Assembly: GCA_029262515.1 (NCBI GenBank)
Contig: JAJCZH010000020.1
Location: 1-64,000, forward strand
Source of the DNA: Deltaproteobacteria bacterium
GTDB taxonomy: Bacteria > Desulfobacterota > GWC2-55-46 > JADFVP01
DNA: 64,000 nt
Direction: 5' to 3'
Each line of letters starts with the position of its first letter. Within the stretch, counting starts at the first letter, position 1. Of this stretch, positions 6,081 to 9,444 are shown in pieces. The notes beneath the pieces were generated by a model that was given only the letters and a program-made list of their open reading frames with translations, was not told the origin of the DNA and did no database searches. The translations under genes were made by a program, and so were the position numbers.

Positions 6081-6198
6081 AGCCATAATATCAAGCCTCA
6101 AAACCGGGGTGTGTTGTATTTATTTTCGGTAGAACTGTTGCATACAGAAACGTGGTGATAAAGTGTGAAATACAAAAAGTGCTTTTACACAATAGTTT

Positions 6199-6740
6199 CT
6201 AACGTTACATACAACACCTTCAAAACCACCACTTCCCTAACGTAATATTACGTATCATTGCAGACGAACAGGTAAATACCGTAACGTTACGTTCTTACAG
6301 CAGACTCACAAGCCCGGATATATACTTTGAAAACTCCCGACCTTTTTGATATCTTCCCGTTATGCGAACATATGCAAAAGACAACTGGAAGAAAAAAATA
6401 GACCCCGCCTTTGACAAGGTGATCAGAAACTACGTAACGTTTATTAGCGCACCGGAAAAATCTCCGAAGGAAGGTACGCTAAACCTGCCTGAAGGTTTTA
6501 TTGAGCCTCTAACTAACACCCCTGACTGGCAAGACTCTAACGTTACGTAACGGAAAATACCTACAAAGCTACCATACCCTATAAAGTAACGTACGTTACG
6601 AGTTCAAATCTTCCTAACGTTACGTTACGTAGCGTTTCAGGAGTATAGGCAAATCCCGTACGTTAGGGGCGTTATAGAATTTTCTATTGATATATTTTGT
6701 AACACTCACTCATTTTTGCTATCTTACCTTTATGCCTACG
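6199..6740. repeat. cluster of ACGTAACGT-type short palindromes
   Basis: ACGTAATATTACGT (6240-6253), CGTAACGTTACG (6280-6291), TACGTAACGT (6431-6440), CGTTACGTAACG (6541-6552), GTAACGTACGTTAC (6586-6599), TAACGTTACGTTACGT (6615-6630), TACGTACGTA (~6737). Confidence 0.75.
6362..6550 (+). CDS. hypothetical 62-aa protein
   Basis: MRTYAKDNWKKKIDPAFDKVIRNYV...; N-terminus repeated at 6732; no clear SD. Confidence 0.35.
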   Translation: MRTYAKDNWKKKIDPAFDKVIRNYVTFISAPEKSPKEGTLNLPEGFIEPLTNTPDWQDSNVT

Positions 6741-6800
6741 TACGTAACATACACTTGGAAAGAGAAGATCGACCCTGCCCTAGAGAAGCCTATTAATAAT
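6732..6800 (+). pseudogene. truncated second copy of the 62-aa ORF N-terminus
   Basis: MPTYVTYTWKEKIDPALEKPIN; ORF then runs into antisense of the minus-strand gene. Confidence 0.4.
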
Positions 6801-7794: not shown

Positions 7795-8242
7795 ATATTA
7801 TTTTGCATCATAAAGGAGCTGGTTATGCTGCCCAAGTACTGAGCACAAGATATATTTAATAATTCTTTAAAGTATAAGTCCATACATAACTTCAAAATAC
7901 CTTATCGGACAAAAAACACCCCATTCTGTGTCTGCGACAACGCCTGTTACGTTATCTATAATCATTTCAGTTGCATTAAATCGGTTGGTGCACCTATTCC
8001 ACCTCTCAACATTGTTGCTAGCTTACGCACCAATGTCGAGTAAGAGCGAGTAAAGCGCATAACCTAGTTTATTCACTGGAAAGGTTTTTTTAGACTAATG
8101 GAAACTAATAAACATCAAACACCGCTCTTGGTAAAAATTGGCGTGGTTATAGATAAGGCTATTGATGATGTTAATGGCAGAAGGTATACTACTGCCAAAC
8201 GGGAAACCAGCCCGAGTCAAGGTCTCAAGAAAGGAGGTCTTA

Positions 8243-9323
8243 ATGGGACTCTATAAAAGAGACCGGGTCTGGTGGATGAGGTTTAACTTTAACGGCAGGC
8301 AGATACGCCGTTCATGTGAGACCACATCCAAGAAACTTGCAGAAAAAATCTTCTGCAAAGTAATGAGTAACGTAACAGAAGGAAAGTTCTTTGAGGTAGA
8401 CCCAAGGGAGACAACATTTAACGAGCTTTGCAAAGACCTTGAGACGGATTACAGGATAAACAAGAGAAGAACCGCCGACAGGTTGGGCAGGACTCTAAGG
8501 CACCTTAAGGGTACGTTTGAAGGAATGAAGGCTGAAGATATCAGTACAAGCTTTATCCAGAACTATATCATCAAACGGCAAGACGCAGGTGCTGCCAACG
8601 CTACCATAAACAGGGAAATGGCGGCACTCAAAAGAATGTTCACCCTTGGGTTTAGAACAACACCTCGGAAAGTTACAAGCGTTCCCTATATCCACCATCT
8701 TCAAGAGAATAACGTAAGGCAGGGATACTTTGAGCATAACGAGTTTATTGCTCTTAGAAACGCTTTACCCCCCACGCCTTAAGCCTATGGTAACTATGGC
8801 CTACTATACGGGTATGAGGAAGATGGAGATTTTAGGTCTCAAGTGGTCTCAGATAAACCTGAAAGAACAGAGGATTACTCTTAGCGCACAAGATACCAAG
8901 AACAAAGAGTCGAGGGTAATCTTCATGGAAGGGGAGCTTTTAGAGGCTATACGCTCCCAGAAGGCCTTAAGAGACCGTAAGCACCCTCAATGTCGTTACG
9001 TGTTCTTCGGAGCCACAGGTAAGCCTTTCAGTGGCTTTAGAAGGGCTTGGAACAAGGCCTGCAAAGCAGTTGGGCTTACAGGCAAGATACCGCACGACTT
9101 TAGACGTACGGCTGTGCGTAACATGGTGCGAGCAGGGGTTCCTGAAAGGGTGGCGATGATGGTATCGGGTCACAAGACGAGAAGCGTCTTTGACAGGTAC
9201 AACATAGTCAATGAAGACGACCTCAAGCTTGCCGCTAAAAAAGTGCAGGAAAGATTTAGCACAATTTTAGCACAATCGGAAACACCGAGGTCTGAGACCG
9301 ATCAAAGTACGGTTGGGGTTTGA
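8243..9323 (+). pseudogene. tyrosine recombinase / phage-type integrase, single frameshift
   Basis: MGLYKRDRVWWMRFNFNGRQIRRS...; frame change at CCCCCC near 8768; then [16 protein letters not shown]..., [38 protein letters not shown] (R-H-R-H-Y catalytic region); SD AAGGAGG. Confidence 0.85.
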
Positions 9324-9357: not shown

Positions 9358-9444
9358 TGGTGCCCGAGGGGGGAATCGAACCCCCACGACCTTGCGGTCT
9401 CGGGATTTTAAGTCCCGTGCGTCTGCCTGTTCCGCCACTCGGGC
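9358..9444 (-). tRNA. tRNA-Leu (anticodon TAA)
   Basis: GCCCGAGTGGCGGAACAGGCAGACGCACGGGACTTAAAATCCCGAGACCGCAAGGTCGTGGGGGTTCGATTCCCCCCCTCGGGCACCA folds as a class II tRNA. Confidence 0.95.

Follow-up and report, generated by a model that had tools for sequence, protein, structure and literature searches.

Why do two short open reading frames, each preceded by the same upstream stretch, stand one behind the other within the window, that is, the 64,000 nucleotides of contig JAJCZH010000020.1 (C20) of a Deltaproteobacteria bacterium analyzed here? A preliminary description had taken them for duplicated micro-ORF leaders, perhaps a cassette family with a truncated second copy, and had suggested leaderless expression or a DNA-level function. 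We followed these proposals through the host genome and its relatives.

The repeat pair and its parent gene

Positions 6346-6425 (unit 1) and 6716-6795 (unit 2) were identical at 55 of 80 positions in an ungapped alignment, whereas the best 80-bp pair per Markov-1 simulation of the region (n=200) averaged 38.5 identities and reached 44 at most; the described similarity is therefore genuine. The match covered 13 of the 16 bp before the ATG and 42 of 64 over the first coding bases. Since an upstream block was also repeated (6236-6283 versus 6613-6660, 48 bp, 75%), the repeated unit is about 370 bp long and comprises palindromes, predicted promoter and gene start. The palindromes do occur in both copies, as had been claimed; they belong to a dispersed word, CGTWACG. 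As also reported, no Shine-Dalgarno sequence precedes the ATG of unit 1 or unit 2. Exact copies of TATCTTNCCNTTATGC were found in the host genome at these two units only.

Used as a protein query against the host genome, the 62-aa ORF of unit 1 matched unit 2 and an open frame of 343 aa on contig C30 (E 9.7e-10). The C30 gene encodes 321 aa and starts MPTYVTYRWKEKIDPALIKPIK; we coined the name KIDPA protein for its product. A profile of the family matched unit 1 over positions 2-58 only (i-E 2.4e-16) and unit 2 over positions 2-21, and unit 2 was 79% identical to the C30 gene over 24 aa. The homology of unit 1 ends near 6538, at codon ~59, where the word array of unit 2 starts, so the last residues of its ORF are encoded by words. 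The homology of unit 2 ends near 6796, at codon ~24, and its ORF soon runs antisense to a foreign gene. The second copy is thus truncated as proposed, but so is the first. On solid sequence grounds, the "micro-ORFs" can be assigned as 5′ fragments (~59 and ~24 codons) of a normal gene of about 320 aa, each with a predicted promoter of its own.

The suspicion of a larger family was borne out, and the two units are far from being the only copies. Four full-length homologues were found elsewhere in the host genome (C30; C24, 322 aa; C36, frameshifted; C38, distant), three in related genomes (G027, G011 and G008; G001 has only a fragment) and one in another phylum, on a Brocadiaceae contig (S225); a contig of Latescibacterota gave a short match. 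The reading frame is intact in C24, C30, G027 and G011, which argues that the protein is under selection. Across the phylum, only 3 of 297 sampled genomes have a member, and with so rare a family the comparative sample is small. No homologues turned up in viral contigs, plasmids or phages, and no family in Pfam, NCBIfam, PHROGs or PADLOC describes the protein. A weak likeness of the C30 protein to Gam appeared in Pfam and PHROGs; we rejected the Gam host-nuclease inhibitor (PF06064) as an assignment, the score being 20.3 bits against a cut-off of 25 in one of the two sequences scanned. The protein is probably all-helical, judging from a structure model of poor quality (mean pLDDT 66.9), and searches of the PDB by sequence and by fold gave no match.

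Predicted leaderless promoters

The conserved stretch before each ATG, which the preliminary description had linked to leaderless expression, should be an extended -10 element with a -35 element, placed for transcription to start at the ATG itself. Units 1 and 2 and the C30 gene carry TTGAAA or TTGTAA-N17-TATCTT-N6-ATG, C24 and C36 carry TTGAAT-N17-TACTCT-N6-ATG, and G011 carries TTGAAA-N16-TAATAT-N6-ATG. In all six copies a TG stands one base ahead of the -10 element, giving TGnTAnnnT-N6-ATG in four diverged groups; four of the six are homologues outside the window, so the spacing is kept in diverged relatives and the suggestion of leaderless expression gains support. Within the window, TGnTAnnnT-N6 precedes 3 of 1,655 ATGs, two of which are units 1 and 2, and TAnnnT at that spacing precedes none of the 36 host genes of at least 200 aa, with start codons assigned mechanically. 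A similar element in G008 leaves a gap of 7 nt; the spacing is absent in G027, the Brocadiaceae copy and C38.

With a -10 element 6-7 nt from the start codon and no Shine-Dalgarno sequence, the six copies resemble leaderless genes described in Deinococcus-Thermus (PMC12340547) and in PMC3160421, in which TAnnnT lies a few bases before the start. In Deinococcus, this arrangement reportedly yields messages without a leader (PMC12340547). Unlike those genes, the KIDPA genes combine an extended -10 with a -35 element and belong to mobile elements, whereas the host's own genes in the window do without the motif.

The decayed element and its relatives

The arrangement of features (Table 1) indicates that units 1 and 2 are parts of an integrative element, now decayed, next to tRNA-Leu(UAA).

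Table 1. Features assigned to the decayed element in the window
Feature	Position	Strand	Basis or detail
Unit 1 upstream region, TAACGTTACG-type words/palindromes	6198..6326	+	CGTWACG at 6280, 6285; related words at 6198, 6238; repeated at 6613-6660
Unit 1 predicted leaderless sigma70-type promoter	6327..6361	+	TTGAAA 6327-6332, N17, TATCTT 6350-6355, preceded by TGA (extended -10), N6, ATG
Unit 1 KIDPA start, ~59 codons	6362..6538	+	formal ORF 6362-6550, 62 aa; profile and C30 matches
Unit 2 upstream region, CGTWACG array	6538..6696	+	sites at 6541, 6546, 6594, 6618, 6623
Unit 2 predicted leaderless promoter	6697..6731	+	TTGTAA 6697-6702, N17, TATCTT 6720-6725, preceded by TGC, N6, ATG
Unit 2 KIDPA start, ~24 codons	6732..6796	+	similarity to C30
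Broken foreign gene, ~290 aa	6827..7711	-	pieces 7711-7382, 7343-7194, 7156-6827 in different frames
KIDPA 3′-end remnant, weak	7881..7905	+	7881-7932 69% identical to C30 gene end plus box, E 0.002
Inverted-repeat box CGGACAAAAAACACCCCATTCTGTGTCTG	7906..7934	+	core 7908-7932
HTH_17 (excisionase-like) gene remnant	8098..8256	+	profile i-E 2.7e-10, positions 62-104 only; C-terminal part, DNA-binding domain lost
Tyrosine recombinase gene, one frameshift near 8770 (C run)	8243..9323	+	Pfam Phage_integrase 7.5e-26; SAM-like N domain
tRNA-Leu(UAA), presumed target	9358..9444	-	3′ end faces recombinase

An associated recombinase, which had been suggested as a thing to look for, is thus present in frameshifted form. 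The broken gene occupies the place expected for the body of the unit 2 KIDPA gene; no family match was found for it, and it is possibly cargo of another element. In the relative G027 the gene order is the same, the HTH and recombinase genes are intact, and the tRNA is likewise tRNA-Leu(UAA). The tRNA was the only Rfam match in the stretch. The assemblies are drafts, in which an isolated frameshift (that in the recombinase C run or that in C36) may reflect a sequencing error, but no such error would account for changes as large as the truncation of both KIDPA fragments and the missing HTH domain. Separately, 33 bp at 6108-6140 were 88% identical to C7:5133-5165, just past apparent IS3-type transposase remnants.

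Judging from its gene neighborhoods, KIDPA appears to travel on mobile elements of one family, which integrate beside transfer-RNA genes. HTH_17 and tyrosine recombinase genes lie beside it in C24, C30, C36, C38 and G027, and a tRNA stands at the recombinase end in C20, C30, C36, C38 and G027, though not in C24; a recombinase gene adjacent to a tRNA is what is expected of integrative elements. The C38 element (L034 502-9014, ~8.5 kb) is complete, with 46 bp of the tRNA-Glu 3′ end perfectly repeated at its boundaries, whereas no direct repeat of a tRNA 3′ end (att) was found for the window element, C30, C36, G027 or G011. The cargo varies: a type III methylase in G027, a cytosine methylase and further nuclease-like genes in G011 (one Vsr-like by inspection), a UG19-type reverse transcriptase (DRT UG19) in G008, and genes that are nuclease-like by inspection in C24, C38 and the Brocadiaceae element. 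By inspection, the C38 element also holds an apparent rolling-circle Rep, a Nudix gene, an HNH nuclease and transposases beside its distant KIDPA protein. The Brocadiaceae contig (L041 200-11200) shows an element-like stretch with a frameshifted KIDPA gene, the 25-nt box described below, a nuclease-like gene, a Rep-like gene and a recombinase. We recognized no relaxase or conjugation genes near the KIDPA copies.

With a tyrosine recombinase at a tRNA 3′ end, an excisionase-like gene, variable nuclease or defense cargo, decayed remnants and, for C38, an att repeat, these elements resemble the genomic islands and integrative elements that accrete in tandem at tRNA 3′ ends and decay there (CIMEs; PMC5704250). 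They differ in carrying an additional conserved protein that has not been described, a 25-nt box and dispersed words.

Box, words and a putative mechanism

The 25-nt sequence GACAAAAANNACCCCNNNNNGTGTC follows the KIDPA gene in C24, C30, C36, G027 and the Brocadiaceae element, lies at the corresponding place in the window, and occurs in altered form in G011. Allowing up to one mismatch, we found it at five places in 62 genomes of the class, all of them KIDPA elements; among 75 genomes of the class of the Brocadiaceae relative, searched for exact matches, the Brocadiaceae site was the only one. It is almost exclusive to KIDPA genes. One match in viral contigs lay inside a coding gene on a contig without element genes, and we took it as chance. 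In the stem, GACA/TGTC is kept and only two outer pairs show compensating changes, while RNA folding is mostly no better than that of shuffles (z -2.0 to +0.2), for which reason we speak of an inverted-repeat box, be it DNA or RNA. We found no published description of this box or of the words.

ACGTAACG occurs 6 times in 6285-6630 compared with 93 times in the whole 2.5-Mb genome, and its clusters (at least four within 2 kb) coincide with the KIDPA elements, lying on C20, C24, C30, C36 and C38. With its sister ACGTTACG it is among the most enriched 8-mers of the host KIDPA elements and G027 (e.g., 7 seen, 0.07 expected), and CGTWACG as a whole has 5-11 sites per element versus 0.5-1.1 expected. 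Sites occur in both orientations, within genes as well as in front of KIDPA and in the stretch from KIDPA to HTH_17. Such positions in intergenic control regions and within genes make protein binding sites the most likely interpretation. A triple of ACGTAACG on C23 lies in a core-gene locus with no element genes seen.

Neither candidate protein accounts for the words by itself. HTH_17-related loci lacking a nearby KIDPA gene have no word, except for two G023 loci with two each, so HTH_17 alone is no explanation; nor is KIDPA alone, since G008 and the Brocadiaceae locus have none and G011 only two. Word identity may differ between element lineages. An HTH_17-recombinase locus (L061, G025 C146) is rich in another word, ACGTGCG (10 seen, 0.37 expected), on a contig that ends before any KIDPA gene. 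Short asymmetric words spread over one mobile element far above chance, and rare in the host, recall the stoperators of cluster A mycobacteriophages (PMC9283540). However, the likeness is one of working and not of membership: word, hosts and proteins are unrelated, and many words lie inside genes in both directions. The stoperator mechanism is orientation-dependent (PMC9283540), and word orientation, rather than following transcription, is mixed within single elements, which argues against a strict copy of it.

How, then, did the pair arise, and what was it for? That the units are functional micro-ORF leaders, two short peptides or regulatory leaders under selection, would explain why promoter and start are well kept in both. 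We consider this highly improbable and largely refuted: both units match only the start of the 320-aa gene, one ORF ends in the upstream words of the other, the other runs into the antisense strand of a foreign gene, and no short-only version was found elsewhere. A local tandem duplication of the 5′ end of one element, followed by divergence, would fit the adjacency of the units, their common direction, their distance of ~370 bp and the shared 48-bp upstream block. It is nevertheless distinctly unlikely, for over the same 80 bp unit 2 matched C30, on another contig, at 67 positions and unit 1 at 55, with 86% identity between 6659-6796 and C30:33806-33944 (138 bp), and unit 1 was about equally near to C30 (53/80) and to unit 2. 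Two element lineages best explain these values; the supposed cassette would consist of gene starts left in decayed elements of apparently two sub-lineages. The words and box might instead be the main functional units, for example a replication or transfer origin, with the gene starts as passengers. In favor of this, the box is better conserved in sequence than the proteins, and one element that has it, in Brocadiaceae, also has a replication-initiator-like gene; yet the box was found only together with KIDPA, whose frame is selected as argued above; we regard this possibility as unlikely.

With the observed homology and decay, the tRNA, recombinase and excisionase-like neighbors and the promoter spacing in relatives in view, we consider it highly probable that the units are fossil KIDPA gene starts with leaderless promoters, derived from two integrative elements. 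This confidence concerns the gene starts and promoters and does not extend to the silencing step below. The elements would have entered one after the other at the tRNA-Leu(UAA) 3′ end, and deletions, replacements and frameshifts would then have eroded the tandem array. That elements of this kind accumulate in tandem with decayed ones has been documented (PMC5704250); in the window, where no att repeat was found, we infer such accretion from content. Unit 2 resembles C30 in its KIDPA part, whereas the HTH and recombinase genes resemble G027, so elements have also recombined with one another.

In relatives with living elements, a leaderless message would give rise to the KIDPA protein, its predicted promoter lying among the words, and its gene stands between cargo (often restriction-modification, other nuclease or defense genes) and the excisionase-integrase genes, ahead of the 25-nt box. 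An element-coded protein, KIDPA or HTH_17, could bind the words and thereby silence the integrated element, a tentative proposal to which we give somewhat less than even weight; the box, lying between KIDPA and the excision genes, might be a point of control or processing. Anatomy and co-occurrence point to such a mechanism as the most likely, and the protein, words and box most likely serve regulation and maintenance of the element. We further speculate, with considerable doubt, that the three constitute an undescribed control or maintenance system that crosses phyla, in which the protein reads the words or the box to silence or mobilize the element.

What appeared to be an odd duplicated leader is a marker for a family of putatively tRNA-targeted, nuclease-carrying elements with an uncharacterized conserved gene. 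The family offers three testable handles, namely a promoter placed at the ATG and predicted to be leaderless, a DNA word peculiar to the elements, and the 25-nt box, which is specific enough for finding such elements in genomes. The locus also cautions that a short ORF behind a conserved promoter can be the fossil of an element gene.
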